From NCBI RefSeq assembly GCF_016097555.1, contig NC_054704.1, positions 77,278,638-77,342,637 on the forward strand: a stretch of 64,000 nucleotides of DNA, given 5' to 3'. This DNA is from Gigantopelta aegis. Its lineage: Eukaryota > Mollusca > Gastropoda > Neomphalida > Peltospiridae. The position numbers and the translations under genes were made by a program. Each line of letters begins with the position of its first letter. The first letter of the stretch is position 1. The notes below the pieces were generated by a model that saw only the letters and a list, made by a program, of their open reading frames with translations, was not told where the DNA came from and did not search any database. Below are positions 5,545 to 63,796 of the stretch, in pieces.

Positions 5545-5560
5545 AGTGTTTGGTGGAACA

Positions 5561-6034: not shown

Positions 6035-6343
6035 AATCTAAGAATGAAATAAAATCTATAGGCTATACTAATAGGTGGATGTCCAGTAAATATGTAATGC
6101 AAAACAGGGTTATTTTATACCCCCTTTTGCATATACTGATTTGTAACTCAATATTGTTCCTCCATCTAAAATTATGTAATGCTCTTGTGATCTCACCTCT
6201 TTTCATGGTTAACTTGACATAATATAAACATTACTGCATATTCTGTTTGTATGTTTTATTTCTTTCTCAAGGTAATACTTGATTTAAAACATAATTATAG
6301 TAGAAAAACTAGCCTTCAAAATTTGTATTCACTTTACACTTTA

Positions 6344-12087: not shown

Positions 12088-25636
<13,549 letters not shown>

Positions 25637-25785
25637 TTTCACCGTCGATTACAAACAATACACAATCTGGGAAAACACAAAAAATGTCAATTAAAATAAG
25701 AGCACGGCGCTGCCTAATCGTCGACGAATGCGTTGTAATATGGCACGATGGAACTGTGTGAATGCTAAAATGTAATGTTACATAC

Positions 25786-26035
25786 CTGGATAAAAACACA
25801 AGGAATCAGTAAATCGCGTCTGGCAACTTGTCAACTGAGCGAATATCAGAATCGCGCGTCGTAGCTCTTTATTGTTGGGTCAACAATCAATGACGGGCTG
25901 TTTTTATAGGTTGTCATAACGATGGGGAGAAGTCGTTGGGAAAAAAATTAGAACCGCTTTGTAACCGATTTAATTAACAGCGAGCCGCTTAATTAGTCGC
26001 GCTAATTAGTCCCGACGTTTGACACGTAATTTAGT
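25786..26035 (-). promoter_or_regulatory. Non-coding first exon and promoter region of the calcyphosine-like gene
   Basis: The non-coding exon begins at an unknown point above 25786. Upstream the sequence becomes CpG-rich compared with its surroundings. 25910-25923 (GTTGTCATAACGAT) resembles an RFX X-box (GTTGCCATGGCAAC) at 10 of 14 positions. 25968-26032 holds four TAATT-type homeodomain cores (TTAATTAAC, CTTAATTAG, GCTAATTAG, GTAATTTAG) in about 65 bp. RFX control would fit a ciliary gene, but the X-box match is weak. Confidence 0.5.
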
Positions 26036-35251: not shown

Positions 35252-35388
35252 TCAAGACTTGGCTGATTTAATGGACTTGATTGATTTGCGACTTCCTCTG
35301 CTTGATGCACGAGACTTGCGTCGAGAGTTGGTGCTACCCGTCTTCCCAGCACTTGGAGGGGTCTTCAGTTTATAGCGAGGTGGAGGGC
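35252..35388 (-). CDS. C8orf74: C8orf74 homologue, last exon (basic tail)
   Basis: Acceptor CCTGCACCAG, then a split Gly codon, PPPRYKLKTPPSAGKTGSTN, an RRKSRASSRGSRKS stretch and stop at 35252-35254. Rich in Ser, Lys and Arg; the human protein also ends in a short basic tail (KGKKAKARK). Confidence 0.88.
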
Positions 35389-38300: not shown

Positions 38301-41300
38301 AAGTGAAACTTGATCTGTAACAGCACATGATAAAGCTATATACAAAATTTCATCTCAATATCTTCAGGCATTACAAAAACAATTTCGTATGGAAAACAAA
38401 CTGTCGTATCTCCTAAGTTCCAGGGCCACGATCCACGAAGCGATCTTAGCTGTAAGATCACCGTAAATGCACTTAAGATGATCTTAGTGTTAAGATCACT
38501 TCGTGGAACGGGACCCAGGGCCATAACTTTGTCAAAAAATGGGTTAATCGCTATAAATGTGAAATTTGATGTGTAACAGTACATGATTAAAAAAGATATA
38601 CAAAATTTCGGCTCAGTATCTTGGGTCATAACTCATAAAAATGGGTAAATCGCCATGAAAGTAAATACTTTAACACATTGTGAAAAAACCATCTAGAAAA
38701 TTATATGTGGGACAGATGGACAGAAAGACAGATGGACAGACATGCGAACAGACAAACAAGACAGAGATGAAACCTATAGTCTCCTCTGGTTAGACTGGTA
38801 GGGGACTAAAAAAGAAATGTTAACATACCCAAGACCTGAGGTCGAGGTAAGCTCGTCTTCTCCAACTTGAACTCCAGGTCTTCTTGTGCTTCGCGAATAG
38901 ATAACTGAATGTTTGACGAGATGGACGTCATGTAGGTGTGTAACACATCCTGTATGATTTCCTTAACAACCTAAACAAATTACACACAAAAGGATAGGAA
39001 GTAGATTAATACATATCCATGGGAAATCTTACATCACAGTAATCATTACATTTCTACACTTTAAAAGAGACTGTCCGCAATTTGCTGCCATTGTAAGGTG
39101 TTTCTGTCTAATAAAATATTTTAATGACCAAATATTACATACCAAATATAGTTTCGTGTTTAGAATATCAGTGTCTACTTATAATTCAGTATGTTTTTGG
39201 TTGTACTAATGTTTATAAGCAGCCCAAACTGAATTTTGTATGCACAAATATATATATATATATATATGTTACTAAGAAATAAAATCAAGTTTGACCTAGT
39301 ATAAACAGTAGGATGATCAGAAGCAAATTTCAAATATACAGTCACTGATAGTCGGCAAGATCTTAACAATGGCAACAAACTTGGTCCCTTTAAAAAAATT
39401 ATGATTCTCAACACTGACGTCAACCTTTTAAAAAATCATTATTAATACATGTATTTATGTTTGTGGGGGTTCACCATTGGAGTGGGTTGTAGCTCAGTAC
39501 CGGCCTCGGTGGCACAATGGTTAAGCCATCGAACTACAGGCTGGTAGGTACAGGGTTTGCAGCCCGGTACCAGCTCCAACCCAGAGCGAGTAGTTAAGGG
39601 CTCAATGGGTAGGTGTAAGGCTACTACACCCTCTTCTCTCTCACTAACCACTAACCAACTAACCAACTAACCCACTGTCCTGGACAGACTGCCCAGATAG
39701 CTGAGGTGTGTGCCCAGGACAGTGTGCTTGAACCTTAATTGGATATAAGCATGGAAATATGTTGAAATGAAATGAAATGTAGCTCAGTATAAAGTGTGAT
39801 GGTTCACGAGATTGATCACGGAGCTACAGGAATTCTACGGCTCATTTCCCAGTAGGGCCTATCAGATCTAAGAATGGGTTTTCACTGTGAAGTGGGAATT
39901 ACATGTATGAGACCACTATATTAACTTCTCTCACTAACTACTAACCATTAACCCACTGTCCTGGTGTGTGCCCAGGATAGTGTACTTGTTCCTTAATTGG
40001 ATATCCAGGTAAAAATCCAGTTAAAATTAATTTTAAAAACAGAAGTTCAAGGGCCATAACTCTGTGAAAAATAGTTAATTGCTATGAAAGTCAAACTTGA
40101 TCTGTAACAGTATGTGATAAAAGTTATACACAAAATGTCAGCTCAATGAAAGTCAAACTTGATCTATAACAGTACATGATAAAGCTATATAATTTTGTTT
40201 TAACTCAATATTTTTAAGCAGTGTGGAAAAAAAATCAGAAGGATGAAGGAAGGAAATGTTTTATTTAACGACACACTCAACACTTTTTATTTACGGTTAT
40301 ATGGTGTCGGACATATGGTTAAGGACCACACAGATATTGAGATAGAAAACTTGCTGTCACCACTTCATGGGCTACTCTTTCGATTGGCCGCAAGGGATTT
40401 TTATATGCATCATCCCACAGACAGTATAGCACATACCACAGCCTTTGATATAACAGTCGTGGTGCACAGGCTGGAACGAGAAATAGCCCAATGGGCCCAC
40501 CGATGAGGAATCGATCCTAGATCGATCGCGCATCAGGCGAGCACTGTTACCACTGAGCTACGTCCTGGCCCCTGACAAAAGGATGAAGACGAAACCTCCT
40601 ACAAAGATCAACCTACCTCTTCTGTGATGGGCGGCTCAATGTCCAACACCTTGTTGAACGTTTTCTCCTTTACACTGTTGACCTCCTCTGTGACCTTTTC
40701 CTTCAACAACAGCTGCTGATTGACCTTTTCACAAGCCTTTCTTTCCAGCTCTAGGAGAGTTTGTTCATAATTCCACACATCTATCTGTTTTGCGGTCGAC
40801 ATCTCCTGGGCATCAGGTGGAACGACAACATCCACACGGACATGAGGTATCTGCTTCTCTTGGTCCCGGGTAAAAACGTACTGGAATAGTTGATAATGCC
40901 TCATGAATGTAGAAAATATGAAATCTGCGTAAACTTTGAAATTCCTCTCACCAAGTTTTGCTGCTAGAACATCTGACTCTGACTTGAAAATGCTGAGAGC
41001 CTCTGTTAAACACTTGCCTACAAAAATGTAAAACAATATTGTTTAGATAGTTTTAAAGGAATAGTGTGGACTTCTTTCTTTTTTTTATAGCTTAATATGA
41101 ATTTATATAATGCTATTGTGTACAAACACTATTTTCAATATTGCATTTTGTTTGTTAGTTAAAGTTTGTTTTACTTAACGACACCACAAGAGCACATTGA
41201 TTTATTAATTATCGGTTATTGGATGTGAAACATTTTGTAATTTTGTCATATAGTCTTAGAGAGGAAACCTGCTACATTTTTCTATCAGTAGCAAGGGATC

Positions 41301-44300
41301 TTTTATATGCACTTTCTCACAGACAGGAAAGAACATACCACAGCATTTGACCATGTATGGTGCACTGGTTGGAACGAGAAAAAGCTCAATGAGTTGAATG
41401 GATCCACAGAGGTGGTTCGATCCTGTGACGTAACTGACTGAGCTAAATCCTGCCCCTGGTTGTAAATATGTTTTAGTTAAAAAAGATGTTCAAATTTATT
41501 TTAAACCTGGTTTCATATGATAAATGGTATCTAACAGCCAGTCTTGATGCACCATCCAGAACGAGAAATAGTCCAATGGGGATCAATCTTAGATCAACCG
41601 CGGATCAGCCGAGCGCATTACCATTGAGCTATGTCTCGCCCGCAAGATAATTAATTTGTTACAGCATGGTGTTAACACTACACTCATAGCTGCACAGAAT
41701 TTATCACAACTTGTAAGGATGTGCCTTATCTATCCTAAAAATAAATTATTCATATATAGATATAAAATATATTTTACAAGTTACACAAAAAAAATCCTAA
41801 AATATCAACATTTTTTTAAACCTGGGGACACAAATTTACCCCTCCTCAAGATTCACCTACTGTATTTCATTAGATCTGACTGTAACTGTGGTTGAGATAA
41901 AAATAACACAGTTAATATTAATATATACTAGAATAACCTGTGCTTAGCATGAGAAAGTTTGGATGGGATGTGCTGGCTTTTCATTAGGCTTTCCCCAAAA
42001 CATAATTACAAGTGTATAAAGCCATCCCTTATTCACTTATATATAGCCACTTATATGTAGCCACTTCTGTGTTGAATTCAGTGAACACAATATTTAGCAT
42101 AATATGGTAATTGTATGAACATAAGAGCAAAAAGATCCTTGCATTATGCGGCATCAGTACAAAGATGGCAGTCAGCAGTACAGATTTAATGAGAAGAAGT
42201 GATCAAAATGATTAGAAGCTCTTAGAAAAGCCTTTCATATGATATTATAGATTAAGTACCTCTCTCTCTCTCAATATCTCTCATACACATGAAATAAATA
42301 CTATTTATTAATATTAATTTCAACTTGAAAATAAAATAACAGATTAAATAGTATTGTAAACTATTGTAAACAATGCTAAGTACCATAAAAATAATATAAA
42401 ATACCCTTTGTCATTTTTAAGAAATCATCTGCAAATGACAGCACAGTTTCTATATGACTCCAAGGAAAACCCTTTTCTGCAGCAAAACTGATGTTGTCAT
42501 ACAGGTAGTCAACATATATCACTGTTCGCAGATCGTCTAGTTCATCAATTGGATGCAGATTTAAAGCTTTGGAGAGTAACAGCCTTCCCTCTTGCTTCTA
42601 CAAATTAAAAAAATTATCACTAGTTATTGTTTAATATTATAGAACTGTTCAAAATGTTGTAAAGCTAACAGATTACCAAATATTAGTACAAAACCACAAG
42701 TCGTGACAACATATTAACCTAATGTCATTACCTGAACATAATTAATTAGGCAGTTACTATATTTTAACTATAAAGACATTACATGTGACATAAAAAGGTA
42801 CACTGTTGAAGCATTATAATGTGAACAATGAATATAACATGTCATTATTATAGTTATGACTGAATTTGTGAAATTAGTTGGCCTACAATTGGCATTAAAA
42901 GTATTCAGTTAGCAATAGACCCCATAAAAATCAAAAAATCAGCACAACATAAAAACCTCAACTATCAGTTTAAAAGATATTAGAAATTTTCCTTCATTAC
43001 ACAGATTTAAAATACAAATTAAAAAATAGGACCCAACAGTACCTTGCTATTTCTATGAAGGTTATAGAAGTCAATATTCAGATTCTCCATAGTTAACTCT
43101 GTTTGGGTACCAGTGATTTAAATGGTCATAAATGTTCCCTTTGTGTACTTGTGGTCACCCAGTTGAAGATGCTGAAATTGTTTTATGCTTTTGCCCAATT
43201 TATACAAATTTATACTACTATGTAGCTCGTAATACGTACCATTTACCCAGTGATTGTAATCTTAACCGACATACTCCATTTTTTGGTGATCCAAACCTTA
43301 GTGTTCAAGAAAATATTTCTGTATTTAAATTGCTTCAGAACTTCCTTCGAGAATAAGTAACCATTCATCTGTTTTATTATCTTTCCTTTCCTTGTTTTTT
43401 TCTGATCCCGTATTTACTTTTCTATCTTTCAGGTCAGGTCAGGTCATAGGGTTTAAAGTGTACATTCTGAGCAAGCTGTTGTAGCACATGCATGCCTGTC
43501 ATGGGTGCAGGTGTCGACTTAATGTCGGCTCTTATGTCCAGGACAGGAAACTGTCTACCCTCCTTGATAACCATAACGGAAATAATCTTATTTGTTTGCT
43601 TCCGCACGTTTGATTTATCAAATATATGTAGTGTCAAGTGAAGGGAGAGGCTTCAATACAGGCATTAGCCTTTGGATAATCCCAAACTGCTGTATTTGAT
43701 GTGAGGAAATAAATATTATTTAAATTAAAAACAAACAAAAATCCAAAACAAGAAGTTTGTTTTATCAACACCACTAAAGTACATTGATTTATTAATCATC
43801 AGCTATTGAATGTCAAACATATGGTCATTTTTACACAGTCATAGAGAGGAAACCAGCTACAATTTTTCCATTACTAGCAAGCACCATTCCACAGACATGA
43901 TAGCACATACCACAGCCTTTAATATACCGGTACTAGTTGTGGCACACTGGCTGGAACAAGAAATAGCCCAATGGGCCCATCGATGGGGATCGATCCCAAA
44001 CCAAGCGCATCAAGCGAGTGCTTTACCACTGGGCTAGTCCCGCCAAAATCCAAAACAAATTCCAGGCACCAGATAAGTTGATCTCTATTTGTGGAAATCC
44101 ATTGAGATGGGGGTTGGATGCATATGTGAGTACTGGTAGTGTATTTTCAACTATGGAATATAATGTCCCTTGATTTCCAAAACTATCATAGTTTAACCCG
44201 TTTGACAATATACGGACAAATGATATGGTCGATAACTGCTACAGTTCAATAATTTTACTAACACGTAACATAGAAAAACATTTTAGGCATGAAATCCAAG

Positions 44301-44417
44301 ACATTTTTTATTATAGCAAAACACTTTATTAGCATTACAACTAATAACTTTTTATATGCATACTTCTCTAGTACAAATTTCTTGAATCTGTGAACTGTTT
44401 AAAAGCTCGTCCGCCAT
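35252..44417 (-). CDS. C8orf74: C8orf74 homologue, complete five-exon gene
   Basis: Exons 44364-44417, 42405-42597, 40617-41017, 38829-38970 and 35252-35388 join in frame to 927 bp, 308 aa; from memory human C8orf74 is 294 aa. Start MADELLNSSQIQEICTRE. Exon 2 has YVDYLYDNISFAAEKGFPWS, against human LLDTLYESIIFAVGKGFPW. Exon 3 has FMRHYQLFQYVFTRDQ, against FIRHYKLYQYVLGQDQ, then VVVPPDAQEM, a WNYEQ-type motif and a long charged, probably coiled-coil, helix. Exon 4 continues helical (EIIQDVLHTYMTSISSNIQL). The C-terminus (PPPRYKLKTPP...SRRKSRASSRGSRKS) is basic and disordered. The molecular function is unknown; the human gene is reported mainly from testis. It is divergent to the RP1-type gene at 44600 onward. 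Confidence 0.92.
36712..36935. repeat. Dispersed repeat, family E, copy 1
   Basis: CTTAAGAATTT, GCAAAATGCTCAC, TTGAACCAGTAAC and ACAACAAATA recur in the same order at 57897-58120. Two diverged copies about 21 kb apart; origin unknown. Confidence 0.65.
37039..38112. mobile_element. Solo LTR (LTR retrotransposon fossil)
   Basis: Begins TGTCACGGGG and ends TTTCGTCACA, the usual TG...CA limits with short inverted tips, and is bounded by an exact 5-bp duplication CCCTG (37034-37038 and 38113-38117). About 1.07 kb with no internal region on either side, so it is a solo LTR left by recombination between two LTRs. The 5-bp duplication and TGTCACG-type tips suggest a Gypsy-like element. It sits in the last intron of the C8orf74 homologue. 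It holds two copies of GCGGAGGTATTACGTAAC (37932-37949 and 38014-38031). The intact target duplication suggests moderate age. Confidence 0.75.
38222..38815 (+). repeat. Dispersed repeat with internal tandem units, ending GGGGACTAA
   Basis: Diverged units of the type GGGCCATAACTCTGT, AAATTGGTTAATCGC, TGAAACTTGATCTGTAACAG and TACATGATAAAGCTATA, followed by ACAGATGGACAGA repeats and CTCTGGTTAGACTGGTAGGG. A partial copy is at 40045-40235. From memory this family is common in molluscs. Confidence 0.75.
38423..38516. mobile_element. Hairpin MITE, second copy, nested in the 38222-38815 repeat
   Basis: GGGCCACGATCCACGAAGCG pairs with CACTTCGTGGAACGGGACCC; same family as 17957-18063. It interrupts a GTTCCAGGGCC/ATAAC junction of the surrounding repeat, so it inserted later. 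Confidence 0.85.
38829..38970 (-). CDS. C8orf74: C8orf74 homologue, exon 4
   Basis: 142 bp; acceptor TTGTTTAG, donor GTATGT. Encodes VVKEIIQDVLHTYMTSISSN, an IQLSIREAQEDLEFKLEK helix and PRPQVLG. It matches the helical LICQAVHTQMELLQELLQRQ part of the human protein in position and character. Confidence 0.88.
39500..39778 (+). mobile_element. SINE, family C
   Basis: tRNA-like head CCGGCCTCGGTGGCACAATG with GGGTTTGCAGCCC as B-box remnant, body with CACTAACCAACTAACCCAC-type words, and tail CTTAATTGGATATAAGCATG followed by GAAATGAAATG repeats. Reverse copies are at 46670-46900 and 50740-51005. Confidence 0.85.
39779..40015 (+). mobile_element. SINE, family C, diverged second copy
   Basis: Directly follows the first copy and repeats its order: GTAGCTCAGTATAAAGTG head remnant, CTCTCACTAACTACTAACC, GTGTGCCCAGGATAGTG, CCTTAATTGGATATCC. 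Confidence 0.7.
40240..40572 (-). mobile_element. SINE, family A, full length
   Basis: Tail GTTTTATTTAACGACACACT, body GGGATTTTTATATGCATCAT and head ACCACTGAGCTACGTCCTGG are all present, in the third intron of the C8orf74 homologue. Confidence 0.9.
40617..41017 (-). CDS. C8orf74: C8orf74 homologue, exon 3 (core)
   Basis: 401 bp; acceptor TTTTTGTAG, donor GTAGGT. Encodes KCLTEALSIFKSESDVLAAK, NFKVYADFIFSTFMRHYQLF, QYVFTRDQEKQIPHVRVDVV, then a Glu/Lys-rich helix. The most conserved block of the gene against human C8orf74. Confidence 0.92.
41155..41458 (-). mobile_element. SINE, family B
   Basis: Tail AAAGTTTGTTTTACTTAACG and middle AAGGGATCTTTTATATGCAC; head at the right end (GACTGAGCTAAATCCTGCCC). 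Confidence 0.8.
41540..41643 (-). mobile_element. SINE family A head fragment
   Basis: GAACGAGAAATAGTCCAATG through ACCATTGAGCTATGTCTCGC. Only the tRNA-derived head and adjoining sequence remain. Confidence 0.7.
42405..42597 (-). CDS. C8orf74: C8orf74 homologue, exon 2
   Basis: 193 bp; acceptor TTTGTAG, donor GTATTT after TKG. Encodes KQEGRLLLSKALNLHPIDEL, the conserved YDNISFAAEKGFPW and VLSFADDFLKMTK. Confidence 0.92.
43025..43375 (+). mobile_element. LINE 3' fragment
   Basis: Encodes PLCTCGHPVEDAEIVLCFCP, then LYYYVARNTYHLPS, FFGDPNLSVQENISVFKLLQ NFL-type sequence. The CxCGxxxEDAxHxxxxCPxY pattern (His replaced here) is the zinc-knuckle end of many LINE ORF2 proteins. It is a typical 5'-truncated dead insertion, in the first intron of the C8orf74 homologue. 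Confidence 0.75.
43432..43548 (+). repeat. Dispersed repeat, family D, copy 2
   Basis: GGTCATAGGGTTTAAAGTGT, GCAAGCTGTTGTAGCACATG, CATGCCTGTCATGGGTGCAG and GTCCAGGACAGG as in copy 1 (22988-23096). Confidence 0.75.
43750..44045 (-). mobile_element. Chimeric SINE (family B tail, family A head)
   Basis: The tail GAAGTTTGTTTTATCAACAC and TTATTAATCATCAGCTATTG belong to family B, but the right end AATAGCCCAATGGGCCCATC ... ACCACTGGGCTAGTCCCGCC is the family A head. Confidence 0.8.
44364..44417 (-). CDS. C8orf74: C8orf74 homologue, first coding exon
   Basis: ATG at 44415-44417 in a good context (ACAAAATGGCGG), 18 codons (MADELLNSSQIQEICTRE), then donor GTATGC. The join to exon 2 is in frame. Confidence is lower than for the other exons because the exon is short and the family is weakly conserved here. 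Confidence 0.75.
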
Positions 44418-44600
44418 TTTGTTACTAATAAACAAAATGACAAATACCGCTGTTCGAGATCAATAGAATTATTGGTGTTATTATTCTTATTCCAGATTAT
44501 AACATTTAGCAACCTTTCAAATGAATATAGACATGCGTAAAATGCTGAAATGACTTAGTGTTATAATAAATTGACCAAATCAAAGTTAGTTTACATCACG
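44418..44600. promoter_or_regulatory. Putative bidirectional promoter between C8orf74 and RP1-type genes
   Basis: The start codon of the minus-strand gene is at 44417. The plus-strand gene's first exon ends at 44731 and its transcript probably starts near 44600, leaving about 0.2 kb between them. The tract includes an E-box TCACGTGA (44595-44602) and, just inside, a GC-richer stretch with GGCAACC (44624-44630), a possible half X-box. No TATA box is obvious in a sensible place. Confidence 0.6.
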
Positions 44601-47600
44601 TGATTAGAAACCAGCGCGAGCGGCAACCTGCCAGGAACTTGGAACTTGACAGCTACACCGATGTAATACCAAAATATGGGAATAAAATAAGGTTCGCAAT
44701 TCACGTATGGCAAGAATGTACTTTGTTAAAGGTAGGTTATGTGTACTGTCATATTGATAGAGTATCCATAGTTCTCGTTATATTTCAAGTGCCACATATT
44801 CACAATTCTTAGATTATCTTAAACAAACTGAGAAAAGTGTCTTGGACTGGCACATAATGACATTCCATGATCATTATGGCGCGTGGTATGTACTGGTTCA
44901 CCCCTCCCCTATTTTCAATACAAACAGATTATAGTCAATTAATATATTTGATTAAATATATATATATATATTCTGTAAATTCATTCTTCATGCATTCTTT
45001 CATAGGCTTGTAGGGAACATTTTGCTTTCAAAATCTTGATTAGCATTATTTCTAGTTAATTGAAAATTGATTAGCAACTATTGTTTAATGTTTTAAAATT
45101 GTGTAACAAATTGCGACTCAATACTGAAAAACACATTTCCTGTCATTCATTCATTCATTTAACAATTTTTTCAGGATGATTTGTCAGGGCATTGGATGAA
45201 GTAAAAAAATTGTTCAACATGGCCAGTGACAGTAATGACAATGAATCGTCAAACTATTACGACCACCATGACAACTACCACCAACCAATCATTGCAAAGA
45301 CGTGCTACTTTTACAAAGAAAATGATTATAAATTTGGTGCCGTCAAGATGGCCATCAATCCAAAATATTACAAGAGCCTTGGACCAATTTATCATGAACT
45401 TTCCAAAAAGATTCCGGGACTGCCATATGGCGTAAGAAGTATCTTTACTCCTCGCGGACGAGACAAAATAACTGCTACCGACAGGTTTGCAGACGCAGGC
45501 CATTATGTGTGCTCGTCCAGTAGGATTCAGGCCAGGAGAATGGAAGTGGAGCGTGTCCACGCTCCCACCCTTTGGCATATCGCCAAGCCAAAAAGTGGAA
45601 TCAGGGAATTAAATGCAATGCTTGCAGAATATGAATTTGAAGACACACCACGAAAAAGACGTCGGTTTGGAATATTTGGTGGGGGAACTGATAAACGACC
45701 TAAGAAAATCCGGGTAATGAAGAATGGTGATCCAACATACAGCCAGATGTTGTTGCTAAATCGAAGGACAGCTCAGACATTCGATCAAGTTTTATCGGAT
45801 ATAAGTGACATGTTCAAATTTGCTGTTAGGAAGCTGTACACAATTGAAGGAAGACCAGTAAGCAACACTGATTATTAGTATTTATTATTATTATTACATC
45901 ATACATGTATTCTAATAATTATTTAAAAAAAAAAAAATTATATTCTAATAATTATTTAAAAAAAAAAAAATTGTAAAGTATATACTTATGTTACAAATGT
46001 TATTTACATGTACATAAATTTGTACTGGCTGTACATTATTAAATATATACCCTGAAAATATTCTCTACCTATATTTCCAATTGATTATTACAGAACATTT
46101 TATAACATTTACACACTCAAAAAATTATACTGACCAACAAACAAACAATGTCATTCATATTCAAATTCCCTACCCCCAAGTATTAAATATCCAGCCCTTA
46201 TAAGTTATAGTGTGTATAAATTACATGTATACTGAATATATTTCAGGTACTTAGTTTGCAACAAGTGTTTAATGGGCCAGAAGTGTATGTGGCTGCAGGA
46301 ACGGAGAATTTCAAGTCGATGATGGGTTTCATGTATACCCCCCAGCCACCTACCCGTGGAATGTCCACTGGCAGGAGAAATCGACTACCTAGTCGCAACA
46401 GAGATGTCGTTGCTTCACAAGTCAGAGATCGTCGAAACCGAATTCAGCGAACAAGTATGTATGATAGAATTTAATTTCAAATTATAAATATGTTAGCATT
46501 AAATTTAATTATTATGAAATTTCTGTTATTTAATGACTGTTCATGATTATCAACTGTATGCTATGGGTTAGAGTGGGTGATGGGTGGGTGGGAAAGTGTA
46601 TTCTCTGCATGCTTGTGAAGATGTTGATAATTGCAAATAGCCCATCAAAACAAAGCAAAAAACCCTCACCTTGCTACATTCATTCATTTCAAGCACGCTG
46701 TCCTGGGTACACACCTCAGCTATCTGGGCTGTCTAGGACAGTGGGTTAGTTGTTAGTTGGTTAGTGGTAAGTGAGAGAGAAGAGGATGTAGTGGCCTTAC
46801 ACCTTACATCCATTGAGCCCTTGAGAACTCACTCTGGATTGGAGCCGGTACTAGGTTGCAAACCCTGTACCTACCATCCTGTAGTCCGATGGCTTAGCCT
46901 TGCTACAGATTATTTTACAGAATGAAATGACTAAATCCAGGTCATTATCCAGTACTAGTAAAACACATTAAACTTCCAACACAAACAAAAATTAACCATA
47001 AGATCAGCCTGAATATACATATATGTTACTGTAGTAATTAATTTGCAGTTAACAAACTCTAGACATAAGAAGCAGACTTCACAGATATCAGTAAGTCTTA
47101 AGGTTGTCAACCAACATTCATATGTGTACATAGTAAATAAGAATTTCTGCTGGAAGTAACTGCTATCCCACTGTTTACTATTACATGTTCATGTAGGTGT
47201 TTTTAATTTATCTCAGGATGTCCATACATGTTTTGAGTAAAAGGAGGGAATGATTCTTTAACAGATAACCAGCTCATTGCTCAATCAGCAAGTTCTAAAT
47301 GTCAAGAGCACTTGATAAAGAGAATGGCATGGAATCCAATTTCACCATATTATTACTCTTATTAGTAATAGCAGCAAGTTATTTGTAATGTGGACTTTCT
47401 CACAGACAGGATAGCACATGCCATGGCCTTTAATGCATCAGTGAACATTGATTGCATGACCCATGACACCTCAAGCCAATTCTGTACCCAGGAACCACTG
47501 TTCTTCCCGTGTTTACATCGGGCTTTGAATTTGGGGAATTGTTTTTAGGATCCCGTCAGAATCATAAGCATGATTTAATATAGATATTTAGGGATTCGAG

Positions 47601-50600
47601 GAAGCATGTAATCCATCTAAATTAGCAGCCTATACATGTAACATAATGTAATTTCACAATTCTACATGTAACTATAATATTATTTGTTAATGCTTCCACT
47701 GGCACCTGGTGTTTTGAGAATTCTTTTAATACAGTGTTGTTATTGTTTTGTGTTCTGCAGGGGGTAGATGGAAAGTATGGATAAGCACCAATGAGCTCTC
47801 AACTGCAGGGACTCTGGCCCAGGTTACCATCACAGTTTATGGTCAAAAAGGCAACTCAGGACCTTTGCCACTGGGATTTGCAACTGAAGAACATTTTCAA
47901 AGTGGAAACAATGATGAATTTGATGTAAGTATATTTAGATTAAATAAACACTTAAAGGTAGAGTAAACTCAAACAAGAGATTTATGTGTTGAAAAGATGC
48001 ATACCTGGACCACCAACACATACTGACACTTTAACAAATAAAAAACGCGTAATTTTAGAGTTAATAAAAAAACATGATTATTCCTGCTAACGGGGGGCAG
48101 CCATTTTGTTTCGGTTTTGTGACGTCTGGTGGTATAGCTTGGGGCGAAGTGACGTCAGCTCCGTCCATCTGCTCTATGCACAGTGTAAACAAACGCTCTA
48201 ATTTATGACAAGGCGCTTCGCTTTCATCAACCTGACTTGTAAAACAACATAAATAACTTGATAGTATAATAAACTATTTAACTAAATATATTTCAGTTTG
48301 CATCAATAGAACGAAATGGAGTTATAGTATTTTTCTTTTTTTAAAAATCCAAAGAAAACAAATGCATATTATTAAGCCTTTATTGGTATGCTATGTTCGA
48401 GCAAAAACGACCACTCACGATACCCAAGTGATAATTTTCTTTTCTTTGGGACTATGTAATTGGTCAGTTTTGTGATTTTAGATGGGAAAGTCTACTTAAT
48501 CAAGGGTTTTACAGAATTTCTTACAGTAATAAAGCAGACGGCTGGTCGATTACGATTAGAGGGGTGTCCGTACGGTTAACACAATACCCTGTGATCTTAA
48601 TAAAAGAGGCATGTCTTTTTAGTGTGTCTAGACACAGTGTCTGGGAACTGTCTGAATATACACCTGCCAATCAGGTACAACAGGTACAGGCCACGGAAAG
48701 AAAAGACCAATTAGCTAAGAATTTATGTACAAACCATAATACAGTTATTTCAACACTTTGACAATGGTGGTTTATTTTGTATTAAACATAAATATATAAT
48801 TGTTGCTGGCTTACTGGGATGACTTATTACAGAATATTGCGATGCATCCGCAAAAATCAGGTATGTTTTGTTTCTTCATTTCGAAGACTAATTCCTGACG
48901 TGACATGTTAGGTATTACGTAACCACCAGCTCGCCAGAGGGCGTATTCACTAGGATGATACAAAATGGCTGCGCCCGTTATATATAATAGCCGTCACATT
49001 TAACCATTTTATTAATTAACTATACGATTATACTTGTTGATATTAAGCAATAATGTGTATTATATATTGTTGAATATGCATACCAGGTCAAATGCCTTGA
49101 TTGTCCCTTCCTTTAACAGTGTTTATAAACAGATTCCTTAGCTGCAACTTTTATGTTGAGTTGGGATATTTATCAACGAAAACACGTTTTGGTGTGATCA
49201 TACTCCAGAGCTGAATATACTTATTATTACACCAGCAGTCATTCATAACAAGGAAAATATTTTCCATATTTTCTCAGTGGGAAATATTCTGCATTGGTCT
49301 AATGAACAATGCTATTGGATAATTTGATACTTACAAACCTTGTTGGTACTAAATATGATGTCATCATGATTTGGCAAACACACAAAATGATGTCATGTAG
49401 TTTAAAGTGTTTGTATTTACGGTTCTCTTTTTTTGGTGTTAAATTTGTAAAAAAATGGCGTTTTGCATTGCAGTTCATTATAGATTTTTCACCAGAATAA
49501 AGAGATTTTTGTTTTTGAAAATTATCAGTGTGTAAAGTGGTTTACGTCGTATCACCCTCTGCCTACCATTCTCATTATCTTAATATAAAACACTTTCCAA
49601 TTACTCCTATAGCAGTATATGATATAGGAGAACAATACTGCATTGAAAACATACAGAGATTTTTATAAAATGGAAATAAGTCAACTTTGTGCATTTTAGA
49701 TGATAAATTGTATATAAAAACTGTCAGGTTTTGGGTTTGTTTTCATGCAGATGTAAAGAAAACAAGGATTGAATAGGAATTAAACGTAACATTTGCAAAA
49801 TACTTAGGGTCTAAACAACTGAACAGGACTATAGTAGCTGTTGGCAAATATCACTTAAAAATGTATTACGGTATTTGTTATTGTAATTTGTATACATTCT
49901 GCAATTTATAACAATGAGGATTTGCCTTTTATCTTGAATTTACTTCTGTATATATATTCAGCTTTCAATTAGACAACATCTGTATGAGATCGATTTTAAT
50001 TAGCATCTAGACTAAATCATTATATACACAACTTGACAAATGGGACATTTGTTTACATCATTCCTTATTTTGAAGAAAACCTTAATATAATGTGAAATTC
50101 TTCATTTCTATACCATGACAACTATGTATTAGTTAAAAAATTCAATGATGACATATTTTAATACTTCAATTTAAGTATCAAGTAAATCTATGTTTAAAAA
50201 GAGGTTTATTTTGTTTTTGAAATTATTAATTCAATAAAAATTATAAAAACTAAAGTATATTCATGAGTTGATGTAGGGTTTTCTCAGGGAAGGCATGCAG
50301 CGTTTAAGAGGGGCAACTACATTATTTAGGGAGGGGTGCTACATTTAGAATGGGCACCTACAGTATTGAAAAGTACACTATTTTACATTATACATTAGAT
50401 ATGGCAATACTCTCCCAGAGTACCAAGTTGAAGAAGATATTAGTTGTACATGCCCCACCACTAAATTCAAATAATGCATTGTATTCAATTACTATTCAGT
50501 ATTCATGACTGGTTTTGTTGGTAATGATATGCTGATTCCATTAATTGTGTATAGTAGGTGCCATTACTAAAATGGGCATTCTCATTACGTGACTTTTCAC

Positions 50601-56600: not shown

Positions 56601-59600
56601 AAGAAAATTCGTTAGCCAAATTATTCATGTTTATTTAGCCAAATGGTGGTACACCCGATGATTTTTGAATTAGCTTTTTAGCTAATTAGTCATGAAGTAT
56701 ATTTGGCAAACAACAGCTTAGACCCCGCCCAAGTGCGACTATTTGGTAGGAGCAGTCTAATTATACAGCAGCAGGTTTCTCTTCGTACTCTAGATCAAGA
56801 GTTTTAATTAACATATAATAGAAAGCTAATAGCTATAGTGTAAAACGTGCTGGGATGTCCATAAAAATATATTTATCTCCTTTCAAAATATTGACAAGTT
56901 GCACAGTTTTCATTTGTCAGTACAGTTTTATTTAATTACCTGATGAAGAAATCTTTCTCTTCCATGCTGATGTCATGACGTTAGTTTGGTGACGTCATCG
57001 CTTTCCTTGACTGTCAAGTCTCTCATTAAACAGTGAATGTTTAGATAAATAAATTTAGCTCCACCAATGTTCAGTTTTTGTTGAAATCGTTTAAGCAATT
57101 TGTTCTTCAGACAAATGCTTGACCAACCATAGTGAATACACTTGTTTTGTCATGTAAGAAGTTTAAAGCTTGAGCAAATTGTTCTTGTTAACAATTAAAC
57201 ATGCTCTAAACTAATTTCTTTGTAGTTCATTCACTTCCCACTAGAACCATCAGTTCATTATGAATGTGACCTATCTTGCTTACATTTGATTTGTAAACCT
57301 AAAGATAGCTTTTGATGTCATTGCTTTTCTTTCATAATGTCATCAGTTTCCTCTTTTATATTATATAGTTTGTGTCATGTAAGAAGTTTAAAGTTTAAGT
57401 TTCTAAACTATTTACACTATGGGTAATAAATACAATAACCCACTTGCTACTCGGAATTAGGATTATCTGTCCCTCGTGAAATTAATGTTGTCGGTCATTT
57501 GCTAAAGCTTGTGACTGACATTAATTTCACTCTGGACAGAGAATCCGTAATTCCTCATAACTCGTTAGTTATTGTCTACATATGTTCATTTAAAATTAAT
57601 AAACAATGCCAACTTTTTTTTAATTGGCACAAGATCACATATTCACTGAGTTTATTTTGATCACCCTGATTGAGACAGATTATTCATGTTTTAAATAACA
57701 ATATTTCAAAATGAAATACTGGGGTATATATCTTCATACCCTAACATACTATTGTCTCCATCAGTTGTCCTTTTTTTTCTTCTTTTTTTACATGTTAGAT
57801 TTAATATTGGTGGTCAACATAATTATCATAGTCATTTCTTAATCGAGATTATTATAACAAATTGTTCTCATTGCTGTTAAAATCTCAAGGCTCAAACTTA
57901 AGAATTTGTTACCTATGGCAATTTTCAAATGTTTTTTGCTGTTCGCAAAATGCTCACCTATGGTATGTTTGAAATGTTTTGACAATTTTTAGCCTGCATA
58001 CAGAAATGTTAAACCAGTAACTTTTGCAACAAATATAAAAAAAACCCCAAAATTGTCTCTTTAACCAATGGCAAGTTTCTGTTGCCCAGCGACAAAAAAA
58101 AAGAGACCATCTGTAAAACCCCTGATCTACATATATGGCAAAACTACAGCAATTGTCATTGGTGCCATGGTTATTAGTTTCAAGCCATGAAATCTAATCA
58201 CTCATTTCAGCACTGCAGATTTCATGGTGGTAATTATTGGTCATCATGAATTAAGATTTCTGCTATGAACAGACAATAAGGCTTTGTTTTGCAAGAGTCT
58301 TTGTTTCGATACTATTTATTGCACACAGATGTAATATGGTCACATCCATGTGTTCTACGTAAATACATGTGTTTGTACATGTATATAAAAACTTTTAAGA
58401 CAAACACAGATAAAAGCTTGCAAATTATACTAGCAATGCTAAAAATGGAAGCCTTGCATAATTTACAAATGGTTAGTATATATCATTGCAGTATCTTACC
58501 TTGATTACTTTTACTTTGGATAACTCATACTTAGAATTTAGTTTGGCTGTATTCATGACATTGTTACAATAATATAATTTGACCACTGATAATGACATCA
58601 AATTATAAACTGTAACTTGGTACACATAATGTTTAATGCAATATAGTTTGGTGAAAGTACACAACATGTTGTATGATAACCTTGGTTGTTTATGACATTA
58701 CAAAACCAAACTAAAGTTTTACATTCTACAATTAATAATTATTTACTATATTTGCTACAGAAAATTATATTGTATGGTTTGATATTATTTTTCTTGTTTT
58801 GATGGTCATAGAATCTTAATTTCATACATTTTAAACTGTGATTCACTTGCAGTAAATTCCATTTTTTTTTCCTTTCCAGATAAATGTCGGCAATATTGGT
58901 GAGATCACCAAGATTCGTATTGCTCATGACAATACTGGTGACTTCCCTGGCTGGCTCTGTGATGAGGTAATGACATATGCATGTGATGTTAAGTTCTACA
59001 ACCCTATGTTAACTCTTTCCTAAAAAGAGAGACCTTCCCTACCACTTGCAAAATTATTAAAAATATTCTGGGTGGACTTCAGTGATTTTAAATTTGAGTA
59101 TGATGATGCTTGTGAACGAAAAGAAAAAGAGATATGATAGTGGAGAGGTGGGATTTAGCTTAGTTGGTTAAACGCTCACCTGGGGTGCTTGCATCACAGG
59201 ATCAAACCACCCCTGTGGATCCATTCAAATGACTGGATTTTTTCTTGTTTCAACCAGTGTATCACGGCTGGTCAAAAGCAGTTGTCTGTGCTTTTCTGTC
59301 TGTGGGAAACTGCACATAAAAAATCCTTTGCTACTAATGGAACAATGGTAGTGGGTTTCATTTCTAAGACTCTATGTCAGAGTTACCAAATGTTTGACAT
59401 CCAATACCTGATGATTAATTAATCAATTTGCTCTAGTGGTGTCATTAAACAAAATAAACTTTTTTTTGCTGCCGGCAGCTTGCAAAATGTTAATGCTTGA
59501 CCACTTACATGTGATTCTGCTAAATTTGGAAACTGCATGTGTAGCAGCTGTAGGTTTCCTCTTTCATGTGGTCTCTTGACCAAGTGTCATAGGAAGTGTA

Positions 59601-62600
59601 TGTTGACACCAAATAGCCACTGACACCATATAACCGTAAATAAAATGTGTTCAGTGCATCGTTAAATAAAACATTTCCTTCCTTCCTTCCAAATAGCCAT
59701 GGTTTAAAATATGTTGAGATGTTGTGGAACATTCCCATTCTTTCCCTTGACGACTACGTACAATATTTAGCTTGGTGTTGTTTTCAGGTGAGAATGAAGG
59801 ACATGGACACAGGAGAGGAGCTGGTGTTTCCCTGTAAGCGCTGGCTGTCTCGGGATGAAGACGATCATGAGATATGTCGGGAACTTCCTGTCATCAGGAG
59901 AGGGGAGCCAACCCTTCCAGGTATTTACATGATCAAAAGTTATTTTATTCTAATTAACATTACATATTAGGCCTACCTATTAGTGTTAAAGTTTATTTGA
60001 TAGTTGAAATTTTATAGAATTTGTCTACCATACTCAAAGAAAATTGATATTTCTTTATTTCGTTAATTGCATTCTGAGTCATTGGCAATATGTTTTTTTT
60101 TTCTTTCACAAGATACACCAATAGGTCTTCAGTCTGTTGGATAAAATGAGCAGTTTTTTTCCAGTTCTCTATCACCATAGGGCTTGCTGTGTAGGGGGAG
60201 TCTCGATGGGTCATGCATATTTTCCTTGTTTACTTTCTAGTTTTGAAGTATGAAGTGACTACAACTACAGGGGATGTGTGGAATGGTGGTACTAATGCCA
60301 ATGTTTACCTCACGGTATATGGTGACCGTGGTGATACAGGTGTCCGGCAGCTGTACACCACCAGCAAGAAAAACACCTTTAAGAAAGGACAGGTGAGGCA
60401 TTTCCTTTAAAACTGACTCAGTAGTGTACATTCCGTATCAGTTTAATTGTAATCAGCAAGTCAAATAATATGTTAATATTATAGTATTTATTATTTATAT
60501 TAATCTACTACATTTTACAGTACTAAAAGAAACCACAAGAGGAATTAATAACAACTTTAAGTTTAAAAAATATTGTCTAGAGAAACTTTTATATACCAGT
60601 GATGGATCACTGGTTGGAATGTGAAAATCCCTCATTGAGTCCACCATATGGAATCAGTCCTGAAATCCATTGTTAGCTGGTGAGCCACTAAGCTACATCC
60701 GCCCTCCTCTTAATATCTAATTTGTAGCCACTGATGCATCCTTAATATAATGTACTTGCATATATATGGCATGTTAAAACTAATTTTTTAAACCATTTTG
60801 TTTTAAGTTTTCTTTTTTAATATTTATTAATATTTAATTTTAGACTGACACCTTCCATGTGGAGGCAGTGACTTTAGGTCGTCTTAAAAGAGTCATCATT
60901 GGGCATGATGGCACTCAGCCAGGTAACAATATATGAAGATTTATACTTGAAACAATTCCTGCTTGGTAATGTGTTTTTTTTCACCGACTAAGAGGAAAAT
61001 ATTAGTGCCAAGTTAGCACTAAAGGTAAATAATGCTTTGGCAGGTGTTTTAAATAAGATAAAATGCCAAAACAGTCATGTATCTTTATACCAGACATTTT
61101 CGAACAACAGTTTCATTTTATGATAAATCATTTTGTAGGTGGAAGTTACAGCATTTATAAGGATGTTAGTAAAATTGGCTAGCTATATTCACATACAATA
61201 GGATACCAAATCAGTTTAAAATATGTACTACTATATTTTTGTACTGGGTCAAACTCTGGCATTTAATTTTACTACAAGTAATTAATAAATTAATAAATTG
61301 TTGACAAAACAAATGTGATTTAAAAACATGAATTTTTTTTTTTTATCTAATGGTCTTTGTTAAGATATTTTGTTGTAGAATGTGTTCCCATGTTTTTTTT
61401 TACATCAATATTTTTGTAGGTGATGGTTGGTATTTAGAGAAAATAACTGTCCAGGAACCAGGTGCTAAACCACATGAAGTGTACAACTTTTATTGTGGCA
61501 GGTGGGTTACATATATCTATTTTCATCATTGCTTTGTGTTTCGTATTCATACTGTTAATTTTATTCAGCCAATCACACCAATGCATTTTTAAATAATCCA
61601 CTTTTAAAAAACCCCAGTGTTATCCACATGGTTCAAAATAAATAGCTTAAAGCACATACATTCATGTAGGAGCTATGATTTATAAAGCTTTCATACATGA
61701 CTTTGACTGTGATTATTTCGCAGCATTACAAAAGACGTTCATTGTATGAATGATCATGGTTAAATGTTAACCTACCTGTAGAAGGTAATATTATAATGAT
61801 ACAACAGATTTGTATTTCCTGAGTTTCCTCAGTTTATTTCCATCACATTTTGTTGTTTCATCGTGATATCACTCATACCACATACCATTATGTTGTATTG
61901 CATGGTTGTTAAACTGACTCGGGCATTGCAGTAAGCAATGTCTGGTAACCCATGTACAGGTTATTATAAAATATAGACTATTGTATTTCCATTATTATTA
62001 TAATTATAAATAGCTAAACAGACACACTGATACTTTTTGTTATTTAAATAACACTCAATTGATCAAAATTTAAGTGGTATATTTTTAGTTTAATAGGATT
62101 TTGTAAAGAACGAAATACTTTCCGTTCTCGACTTTCTTGACATATGCTAACCTCCTGGTAACTTTAACAGCCATTCTTGACTTATTTTGATATCTGTGAC
62201 TGTGTGTTACAGGTGGTTGGATGAAGGAGAGGATGATGGGAAAATTGTTCGGGAGCTGCGAGTTCAGGAAGAATATGTTGAGGACATTATGGAAAAGAGA
62301 AATGTAAGAAATTACTATTTTGAAAATAATCTGTTAACTTTTAACACAAGATATGATAAGATAAGGTAAAGATTTAACATACTAATCAGAGTGAGCTCTT
62401 TTTAAGCATTCCTATTGTGGCTGTTACTCAGATGAACGAACCAGGTATCTTTTTAAAACAAGTGCAAATAAGACAATCCACAATTTAAATGTTTTACCAT
62501 TGATAATTTTAATTTTGTGTAAAACATTAAACATATTTTCAGTGTATCTTTTTTTTTCTGTATATATAATTGTTTACTGTTTATTATATTTACTATTGTT

Positions 62601-63072
62601 ATTATAGGTTATACTCAAAACCTAGCATTTGAATGGTTTAAAAAAATGTATGAAGTAATTATAATTATTAGCATGACAGGCATTGAAAACCACTTATAAA
62701 AGGAAAAAATATATATTTTTCTATTTTCCTATTAAGGTTATAACTTATTTGTTATTTGATTAGACTTAATAATGTTTTTATTTAAACTTATAAGCTGTTG
62801 TGTTCTCGTAACAGTGTTTGTCAGTGGAATAATCATGTTCATATACTTACCTTTGTTTGATGCCCAATAGCCAGTCTGTATTTTTTGTTCTCGGGTGTCG
62901 TTAAACATTCATTAATTCATTGATTCATTCCTTCATTGTCAGTGGGATCACGAGAAGTGGAAGTTTGACAGTCGGAATGAGATCATTCTGTTTTCCCAAG
63001 TCACCAACAAGCCGCTGCGTATCAAACCTGATGGTACAGTGGATGCTCTCGGAGACGTCAGAGATGCAGAGG
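44600..63072 (+). CDS. RP1/RP1L1-type tandem doublecortin protein with PLAT domains, 3' end outside window
   Basis: Non-coding exon about 44600-44731. Exons 45175-45857 (ATG 45219), 46247-46454, 47761-47924, 58880-58966, 59788-59920, 60241-60392, 60844-60922, 61420-61501, 62213-62303 and 62943-63072 join in frame to 588 codons so far. Doublecortin 1 (about residues 26-105) has FYKENDYKFGAVKMAINPKY and GVRSIFTPRGRDKI, close to human RP1/RP1L1 (GVRNISTPRGRHSI); doublecortin 2 (about 162-235) starts KKIRVMKNGDPT. Then come two PLAT domains and a further module. Doublecortin pairs bind microtubules; RP1 proteins act at photoreceptor axonemes. PLAT domains bind membranes or proteins, as in LOXHD1. 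The vertebrate RP1 proteins I recall lack PLAT, so the arrangement is a notable difference. The gene runs off the right edge. Confidence 0.9.
45175..45857 (+). CDS. RP1-type gene exon 2: doublecortin 1 and most of doublecortin 2
   Basis: Acceptor TTTTTTCAG, donor GTAAGC. The start is ATG 45219 (CAACATGGCC), giving MASDSNDNESSNYYDHHDNY; the frame is open a little further upstream but without an ATG. 213 codons. A basic linker (TPRKRRRFGIFGGG) separates the two doublecortin units. Three short upstream ORFs lie in the leader. Confidence 0.92.
46247..46454 (+). CDS. RP1-type gene exon 3: end of doublecortin 2 and basic linker
   Basis: 208 bp; acceptor ATATTTCAG, donor GTATGT. VLSLQQVFNGPEVYVAAGTE matches the end of the RP1 second doublecortin (human [20 protein letters not shown] as recalled). 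The Arg-rich linker GRRNRLPSRNRD follows. Confidence 0.9.
46670..46900 (-). mobile_element. SINE, family C
   Basis: Reversed copy: AGCACGCTGTCCTGGGTACA, GTTAGTTGTTAGTTGGTTAG, then head remnant near TAGTCCGATGGCTTAGCC. Lies in intron 3 of the RP1-type gene. Confidence 0.8.
47761..59920 (+). CDS. RP1-type gene exons 4-6: PLAT domain 1
   Basis: Exons 47761-47924, 58880-58966 and 59788-59920. WKVWISTNELSTAGTLAQVT, ITVYGQKGNSGP, then INVGNIGEITKIRIAHDNTG, PGWLCDE, VRMKDMDTGEELVFPC, KRWLSRDEDDHEICRELP. This is the PLAT/LH2 pattern (V-Y-V-T-V-x-G, G-x-I-x-x-I-x-I-x-H-D-N, W-x-L-x-x-V, F-P-C-x-x-W-L) typical of LOXHD1 repeats. The 10.96 kb intron 47925-58879 splits the domain. Confidence 0.92.
47952..49116. 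mobile_element. TTAA-flanked non-autonomous DNA element, about 1.2 kb
   Basis: Starts TTAAAGGTAGAGTAAACTCA and ends GATTGTCCCTTCCTTTAA. Both ends abut TTAA, are weakly inverted (TTAAAGGnAGnG) and share GCATACCnGG a little inward. Its base use is richer in CpG and GACGTC-type words than the flanks. No transposase ORF. It contains AGGTATTACGTAAC (48910-48923), a word also in the solo LTR. Confidence 0.5.
50740..51005 (-). mobile_element. SINE, family C
   Basis: CTTATATCCAATTAAGGTCC tail reversed, GTGGGTTAGTTGTTAGTGGT, head GATGGCTTAACCACAACACC, ACCGAGGCC at the right. Confidence 0.85.
51233..51574 (+). other. Unidentified 113-codon ORF of higher GC content
   Basis: The frame contains HRHLFRPSQPRRLLRKISEI and CCVGCNNDRNGCRACTLGIE. 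CCVGCNND faintly recalls the start of THAP zinc fingers (CCVxGCNND), but the rest does not follow that fold. It lies in a long intron, has no splice or poly(A) context I can defend, and may be a transposon remnant. Not called as a gene. Confidence 0.25.
51729..51958 (+). mobile_element. SINE, family A, internally deleted
   Basis: Head GGGACGTAGCTCTGTGGTAC with B-box-like GGATCGGTCCC, then a jump from CTGTGGGATG straight to CCATATAACCGTAAATAAAA. The central domain is missing. Confidence 0.9.
53935..54012 (+). mobile_element. SINE family B tail fragment
   Basis: CATCCAATAGCCAATGATTA and GCTCTAGTGGTGTCATTAAA only. Confidence 0.75.
56455..56570 (+). mobile_element. SINE body fragment
   Basis: CCCCATGACTGGTATATGAA, ATATGTGCTGTCCTGTATGG, AAAAGATCC. 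Diverged central part of the A/B SINE group. Confidence 0.55.
57430..57579. mobile_element. MITE with inverted arms of about 65 bp
   Basis: ACAATAACCCACTTGCTACT ... TGAAATTAATGTTGTCGGTC at the left pairs with GTGACTGACATTAATTTCAC ... CTCGTTAGTTATTGT at the right. Nearly the whole unit is stem. Confidence 0.8.
57897..58120. repeat. Dispersed repeat, family E, copy 2
   Basis: Same order of words as 36712-36935: CTTAAGAATTTG, GCAAAATGCTCACC, TTAAACCAGTAAC, CAACAAATA. Confidence 0.65.
59155..59462 (+). mobile_element. SINE, family B, full length reference copy
   Basis: tRNA-like head TTTAGCTTAGTTGGTTAAAC (good A-box TRGCNNAGYNGG) with GGATCAAACC B-box, body and tail CTCTAGTGGTGTCATTAAAC. The A-box shows that the family B head comes from a different tRNA than family A. 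Confidence 0.88.
59617..59692 (+). mobile_element. SINE family A tail fragment
   Basis: CACCATATAACCGTAAATAA, GTGCATCGTTAAATAAAACA, TTCCTTCCTTCC. Confidence 0.85.
60241..62303 (+). CDS. RP1-type gene exons 7-10: PLAT domain 2
   Basis: Exons 60241-60392, 60844-60922, 61420-61501 and 62213-62303, all in frame. KYEVTTTTGDVWNGGTNANV, YLTVYGDRGDTGVRQL, TDTFHVEAVTLGRLKRVIIG, HDGTQPGDGWYLEKITVQEP, VYNFYCGRWLDEGEDDGKIV. A second, clearer PLAT domain: GTNANVYLTVYGDRGDTG and GWYLEKI...FxCxRWL are hallmark LOXHD1-type segments. Confidence 0.93.
60590..60705 (-). mobile_element. SINE head fragment
   Basis: GGATCACTGGTTGGAATGTG through CCACTAAGCTACATCCGCCC, a decayed head of the A/B group in the intron between exons 7 and 8. 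Confidence 0.65.
62858..62935 (+). mobile_element. SINE tail fragment next to the exon 11 acceptor
   Basis: TGATGCCCAATAGCCAGTCT, CTCGGGTGTCGTTAAACATT and ATTCATTGATTCATTCCTTC. It ends only a few bases before the acceptor at 62941-62942, so the SINE tail seems to supply the pyrimidine tract. Confidence 0.65.
62943..63072 (+). CDS. RP1-type gene exon 11: start of a possible beta-trefoil module
   Basis: Acceptor TTCATTGTCAG, in frame from exon 10, donor GTTTGT. Encodes WDHEKWKFDSRNEIILFSQV, TNKPLRIKPDGTVDALGD and VRDAEG. The segment LRIxPDGTVDxxxDxxD is a strand pattern shared by FGF- and fascin-type beta-trefoils. It links to PLAT 2 after EEYVEDIMEKRN. The exon after it lies beyond the window. 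Confidence 0.8.
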
Positions 63073-63102
63073 GTTTGTCAACAGTTTCTCTCACACACTT
63101 GA

Positions 63103-63183
63103 GGGCGGGACATAGCCCAGTGGTAAAGCGCTTACTTGATGCGCGGTCGGTTTAGGATCGATCTCCGTCAGTGGCCCCATTGC
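63103..63183 (+). mobile_element. SINE family A head only
   Basis: GGGCGGGACATAGCCCAGTG, GATGCGCGGTCGG, GGATCGATCTCC, GTGGCCCCATTG, then an abrupt change. A 3'-lacking copy is unusual for retroposition; it was probably cut by the neighbouring palindromic repeat. Confidence 0.8.
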
Positions 63184-63185
63184 TT

Positions 63186-63247
63186 TCCAGACGGTTCGTC
63201 CACTGGACAATTCGTCCACTCACCTCGGACAATTCGTCCACTCGATG
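63186..63247. repeat. Short repeat built from GGACAATTCGTCCACT units
   Basis: GGTTCGTCCACT, GGACAATTCGTCCACTCACC and GGACAATTCGTCCACTCG follow one another. From memory this is a common invertebrate repeat end. Confidence 0.7.
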
Positions 63248-63796
63248 AGTGCATTTTTTTCAAACATATTAATAGTTATTTCTTTGACATTGTAATCGTT
63301 TCTTAACATTATTTTGTGGTATACTATAACCAAAAAAGTAAAATAGAGTTAGAATTCAACATTAATATCCAGCTTTTATTAACTGTTTGTACAATCTAAT
63401 TAAAATTAGCTCCACTATTGCATGTTTCGTGTGAATTACGAATGCCTTAAAACAAGTTTTATTTTATAAAATAAATAATTGTTAATGTAAAATTGAAGAC
63501 TGATAACCCATCCCGTACGTATTGGTATGGTTTGCTGTACTGCGGCCACTAAAATAGACTCGCCCGATATTTTTAGAATTTGTATGCTCCCAAATAACGT
63601 TATAAAATGCGAAGTGTGATCGGTCAATATTTAAGCGCACCCTTTTCTCTTTGGCATTTGACTGCTCCATTCAAATTCCATAGCACCACCACCACCCCCA
63701 CCCGCCTGCTACCGATTTGATCGGGCTGCTGGTGCTCCCTTGCACCTGCCAGTGCAGGCGGTCCCTCCTCTCCCCTCCCCCCACCTTTCCTGTCAT

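Follow-up and report, generated by a model that had tools for sequence, protein, structure and literature searches.

RP1 and RP1L1 are human blindness genes, and in the layout that we take both to have, a long last exon follows the exons encoding the doublecortin (DCX) domains. RP1L1 is not known to contain a PLAT domain, and newer annotation carries human and mouse RP1 much further downstream. The products of both genes have been located in the photoreceptor axoneme, RP1L1 being described as unique to photoreceptors, and a published account of RP1 names a single putative domain in addition to its two DCX domains (PMC11878163). The human 8p23.1 gene order is given as PRSS55, RP1L1, C8orf74, SOX7, PINX1 (table in PMC8027303), with C8orf74 at chr8:10530146-10558103 and SOX7 from 10581278 (PMC6696953), and the human adjacency of C8orf74 and RP1L1 on which a preliminary description of the present locus had drawn is borne out by this published order. 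C8orf74 itself is termed not yet characterised (PMC6696953). It has also been reported as a cancer-testis candidate, and no description of the C8orf74-RP1L1 pair was found in the open-access literature. We take the two human genes to be divergent, with about 17 kb between their 5' ends, and 4930578I06Rik to be the mouse name of C8orf74; no mention of this mouse name was found in open-access literature.

The other described system that bears on this locus is the flagellar C1a complex, the subunits of which include FAP114 and FAP119 (PMC7999657). A review (PMC7999657) and a paper on the mouse central apparatus (PMC12297659) name one mammalian homologue, CFAP119/CCDC189, for FAP114 and FAP119 alike, and according to the review bull sperm become nearly immotile when it is lost.

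In the window, i.e., the whole 64,000-nucleotide stretch of DNA from the gastropod Gigantopelta aegis that was analysed, a C8orf74 homologue on the minus strand and a gene with tandem DCX domains on the plus strand are arranged divergently, with start codons 801 bases apart (Table 1). The gene models thus bear out the divergent arrangement given in the preliminary description.

Table 1. Coordinates of the two divergent genes and the stretch between them, in window positions
Feature	Position	Strand	Basis
C8orf74 homologue exon 5 and stop	35252..35388	-	Gene model; basic Ser/Lys/Arg-rich tail; alone no Pfam match
C8orf74 homologue exon 4	38829..38970	-	Gene model; aligned to human protein; alone no Pfam match
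C8orf74 homologue exon 3, CLAMP/C1a-32 core	40617..41017	-	Gene model; Pfam PF14769 on open stretch 40611-41042
C8orf74 homologue exon 2	42405..42597	-	GT-AG; aligned to human protein; alone no Pfam match
C8orf74 homologue coding exon 1	44364..44417	-	Start codon 44417; GT donor; frame continuous with exon 2; alone no Pfam match
Intergenic stretch, candidate shared promoter	44418..45218		801 bases; CpG observed/expected 1.09 in 44400-44799
DCX-PLAT gene coding exon 1: DCX domain 1 plus the larger part of DCX domain 2	45219..45857	+	Pfam, joined model; followed by a phase-0 intron that coincides in place with human RP1 c.615
DCX-PLAT gene coding exon 2: remainder of DCX domain 2	46247..46454	+	Ends in phase 1; alone no Pfam match; DCX domain 2 complete in joined protein
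PLAT domain 1, first part	47761..47924	+	Alone 30.1 bits, above cut-off 23
PLAT domain 1, middle	58880..58966	+	Follows intron of about 11 kb; alone 16.5 bits, below cut-off
PLAT domain 1, end	59788..59920	+	Alone 18.8 bits, below cut-off
PLAT domain 2, first part	60241..60392	+	Alone 30.8 bits, above cut-off
PLAT domain 2, second part	60844..60922	+	Joined model and Pfam on joined protein
PLAT domain 2, third part	61420..61501	+	Alone 21 bits, below cut-off
PLAT domain 2, end	62213..62303	+	Joined model; alone no Pfam match
Exon like one repeat of an FGF-like beta-trefoil	62943..63072	+	Resembles designed beta-trefoils, at about 11-12 bits per single repeat

The C8orf74 homologue that had been proposed on the minus strand from 44417 was recovered as a complete gene model, which runs from there to the end of its stop codon at 35252 in five exons, with four introns that are all GT-AG (phases 0, 1, 0, 1) and a product of 308 aa. 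When this product is aligned to human C8orf74, for which a working sequence was used in place of a database entry, 84 of the 290 aligned residues are identical and the first 207 are gap-free; the alignment score is 336, as compared to a maximum of 56 in 300 shuffles. On the strength of this sequence match, the minus-strand gene is a C8orf74 homologue, colinear with the human protein. In viral contigs, the homologue gave 34 pattern matches of which none was confirmed, animal genes not being expected in such collections. AlphaFold, run on exon 3 alone without an alignment, predicted helices only (mean pLDDT 61.8, pTM 0.27), a result too weak for a fold search.

The similarity of this protein to the CLAMP family (FAP114/C1a-32, FAP119, CFAP119/CCDC189) lies in a common core. 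The open stretch 40611-41042, which holds exon 3, scores 26.9 bits against Pfam PF14769 (CLAMP, flagellar C1a complex subunit C1a-32), above the cut-off of 22.7 bits, whereas the whole 308-aa protein scores 21.2 bits and so differs from the family in falling just below it; the other four of the five exon stretches, scanned singly, gave no Pfam match. Of the seven chains listed by a phmmer search of the PDB with the whole protein, the best is the central-apparatus protein FAP114 from Chlamydomonas, matched colinearly at E 0.0036 over residues 40-235 and along most of its own length. CFAP119 from mouse was matched at E 1.4, and the other five chains are unrelated molecules with E values of 0.23 to 0.4. 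A search with only the core flips the ranking (CFAP119 E 0.032, FAP114 E 1.3), and no chain closely related to the C8orf74 homologue is present in the PDB copy searched. Pairwise alignment to the FAP114 piece scored 88 for the window protein (shuffle maximum 49) and 104 for the working human C8orf74 sequence (shuffle maximum 68). We conclude that C8orf74 is likely a distant member of the CLAMP/C1a-32 family, of which animals would then have a second protein beside CFAP119/CCDC189; since the whole-protein match to mouse CFAP119 reaches only E 1.4, we do not regard the C8orf74 homologue as the orthologue of CFAP119. Such a family match would support an axonemal role independently of gene position, and the ciliary role that had been suggested for C8orf74 from its neighbour may accordingly be argued on separate grounds.

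For the plus-strand gene, a tandem doublecortin gene had been described from about 44600. The gene is present and divergent as described, and its start codon is instead found at 45219. Ten coding exons were modelled from 45219 to 63072, with nine introns that are all GT-AG, phases that join and no stop codon; the window ends without a recognised end of the gene, which seems to run on past 63072. A candidate non-coding first exon ending at 44731 has a donor score of 9.4, and the acceptor for an exon from 45175 scores 7.7. For reference, the 13 modelled introns have donors of 5.8-11.1 and acceptors of 4.6-14.9, on scores trained on these same introns. It is possible that such a non-coding exon explains the earlier figure of about 44600. 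Pfam on the joined protein detected DCX in two stretches near the N-terminus (5.5e-32) and PLAT in two stretches (1.7e-41), while the trefoil-like exon matched no Pfam family above cut-off, either alone or in the joined protein. Searches with the first DCX exon gave 2 pattern matches in viral contigs and 125 in genome contigs (prokaryote and viral collections), with none confirmed; animal genes are not expected there.

The assignment of this gene to the RP1/RP1L1 type holds for its DCX part and does not extend to what follows, as PLAT and trefoil-like exons come after the DCX exons in a layout other than that of vertebrate RP1 or RP1L1. The tandem DCX region aligns to human RP1, likewise used as a working sequence in place of a database entry, with 75 of 203 residues identical (score 308) and to DCX with 64 of 200 identical (score 233); RP1 against DCX scores 240. 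The working RP1 sequence agrees with all four published RP1 residues that fall within it (185, 263, 376, 488). Against the PDB, DCX leads at 3.7e-20 and a DCDC2 domain is matched at 3.8e-6, with no RP1 chain among the 18 sequences matched.

Splice sites in RP1 are reported at c.615 and c.787, i.e., in phases 0 and 1 (PMC11878163, PMC13205176). The first intron of the plus-strand gene follows window codon 213, which aligns to RP1 codon 205, and is in phase 0 as at RP1 c.615; the second is in phase 1 as at RP1 c.787, its position falling outside the aligned part. The human DCX gene, however, is taken to carry an intron at this position of its second domain as well; the shared first intron may therefore predate RP1 and not be unique to it, which weakens it as a proof of RP1 descent. 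A 2006 survey lists the exons coding for the DCX domains in human as two each for RP1 and RP1L1, three for DCX, DCLK and DCDC2B, four for DCLK2 and five for DCDC2A (Table 2 in PMC1550402). The same table gives three for RP1 in dog, cow and mouse and one in chicken, and one for RP1L1 in chimpanzee, dog, opossum and chicken. The window gene is thus like human RP1 and RP1L1 in its tandem DCX domains, their two-exon coding and the residue and phase of its first intron. It differs in the PLAT and trefoil-like exons and in having no giant last exon within the window, where the gene is incomplete and open stretches on the plus strand between the second DCX exon and 64000 reach at most 120 aa. LOXHD1, which we take to be an array of many PLAT repeats, would resemble the window gene in its PLAT domains in series, of which the window gene has two before the window ends, and would differ in that the window gene has doublecortin domains in front. 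No DCX-PLAT form of RP1 was found described in the open-access literature, which was searched for the doublecortin and PLAT parts. We therefore file the predicted gene as a DCX-PLAT gene that is RP1-like solely in its DCX part, and not as RP1.

Homologues of the two window genes also adjoin at human 8p23.1 and are taken to be divergent there, with about 17 kb between 5' ends as compared to 801 bases between start codons here. Taking human gene number as about 20,000, we estimate the chance that two named human genes adjoin at about 1 in 10,000. If any of the 11 human DCX genes (PMC1550402) is admitted as the partner, our estimate rises to about 1 in 1,000, which makes a coincidental match with human unlikely. 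An ancient linkage of C8orf74 and a DCX gene is likely on this comparison of two species, with the human strand and distance taken as above, and the age of the pair can be dated no closer than the split between these two species.

A bidirectional promoter pair is defined as divergent genes with start sites less than 1 kb apart; the 801 bases here are counted between start codons. The CpG observed/expected value of 1.09 in 44400-44799 is reached by 3.1% of 400-base windows. The plain CpG count per 200 bases is a weaker result, with an intergenic maximum of 8 that is reached by 8.2% of windows. Of the 12 highest CpG observed/expected windows listed, eight begin at 25551-25901, where a calcyphosin-like gene starts. 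The other four begin at 63101-63251 (three) and at 28151 (one), neither of which is a known gene start, so we treat the raised intergenic CpG as suggestive. The region 63101-63650, beyond the last exon found of the plus-strand gene, has CpG observed/expected values among the highest in the window. The ciliary X-box was tried as evidence of a shared control element and rejected as such, as scans were no better than chance: a consensus scan of 44418-45218 found two sites at two mismatches and no closer site, where whole-window density predicts about 2.3 and 0.16, and the full palindromic X-box with up to three mismatches occurs six times in the window against 5.84 expected, with no occurrence between the genes. 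A shared promoter is plausible in this animal. In human it is doubtful given the roughly 17 kb between the 5' ends, and the promoter common to the human pair that had been suggested is on that count not supported. Furthermore, tight co-expression in mammals is not suggested by RP1L1 being unique to photoreceptors and C8orf74 a cancer-testis candidate.

The reading that we favour, with moderate confidence, is that of an old divergent pair of axoneme genes that in this animal probably shares one short regulatory stretch; the common ancestry, the shared regulation and the place in the axoneme are the parts that we infer. C8orf74 would be a mostly helical CLAMP/C1a-32 protein that most likely serves as a structural component of the motile axoneme, close to the central apparatus. 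Doublecortin domains bind microtubules and PLAT domains commonly bind membranes or partners, and the DCX-PLAT protein would correspondingly be a microtubule binder whose tandem doublecortin domains grip the microtubule wall while the PLAT and trefoil-like domains extend towards the membrane or partner proteins. With just 801 bases between the start codons, one short stretch would probably drive both genes, presumably in ciliated or flagellated cells.

The linkage could also be old and yet have been kept by chance or tight packing, with each gene under its own control. In favour of this, the human genes have stayed neighbours in spite of about 17 kb between their 5' ends, the X-box shows no enrichment between the genes here, and the raised CpG would fit any promoter; a gap of 801 bases is, however, small where introns reach 11 kb, and we consider separate control a reasonable possibility on which we would not rely. 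That the two arrangements are unrelated and look alike by coincidence is very improbable in our estimation. In its favour, two species only were compared, but both genes match human counterparts, the divergent layout agrees (human direction taken as above), and chance would produce the match about once in 1,000 cases by our own estimate even with any of the 11 DCX genes as partner.

It is also conceivable that the plus-strand gene belongs to a different DCX-PLAT family, e.g., a LOXHD1 relative with added doublecortin domains, in which case it is not the counterpart of RP1/RP1L1 and the match with 8p23.1 is partly accidental. The PLAT domains and trefoil-like exon after the DCX part, the published account of RP1, with no more than one putative domain besides the two DCX domains (PMC11878163), and the lack of a giant exon in the window all point in that direction. 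The DCX part is nevertheless nearer to the working RP1 sequence than to DCX, with agreement in intron place and phases, and two exons encode it as in human RP1 and RP1L1, against three to five in DCX, DCLK, DCLK2, DCDC2A and DCDC2B, a count that varies by species (PMC1550402). Since an accidental adjacency would in addition be improbable (about 1 in 10,000, our own estimate), we regard a separate family as unlikely. A bolder form of the favoured reading holds that C8orf74 is the missing animal counterpart of Chlamydomonas C1a-32 (FAP114), that its divergent pairing with an ancestral DCX-PLAT-trefoil microtubule binder predates the protostome-deuterostome split, and that RP1 and RP1L1 of vertebrates descend from this binder in reduced form; we put this forward tentatively and consider it rather doubtful.

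Should the apparent age of the pair be correct, position and family together give C8orf74 its first testable function, as a part of the axoneme. C8orf74 would then perhaps be a second C1a-type subunit beside CFAP119/CCDC189. Similarly, RP1 and RP1L1 may derive from a larger PLAT-bearing protein, which would bear on the ties between disc and axoneme in photoreceptors.

Several other features were observed in the window. The calcyphosin-like (CAPSL-type) EF-hand gene runs from 25636 to about 21940 on the minus strand, its first coding exon having been read by eye. Two joined pieces of it matched a calcyphosin-like protein in the PDB (11yj_1A, E 1e-49), as well as calcyphosin (3e3r), RIB22 and RIB57, the last two of which we take to be ciliate doublet-microtubule proteins. 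Together with the divergent pair, this makes three genes with ciliary relatives within about 41 kb. At 24370-24141 on the minus strand, inspection by eye showed a tandem repeat with a unit of about 29 bases, ggttccaaggattattaaaagactggcta. A Tc1/Tc3-type transposase ORF lies at 28394-29534 on the plus strand and is apparently broken by a frame change between 28394-29110, which matches PF01498 at 6.9e-14, and 29241-29534, which has no match. At 5068-6037 on the minus strand, two overlapping long open stretches of 176 and 158 aa have no Pfam match and possibly represent a mobile element. Short interspersed elements with a tRNA-like start, identified by eye, are repeated on the minus strand (e.g., 44035-43780, 41640-41180 and 40575-40250), and the plus strand has similar elements near 59150 and 63105.
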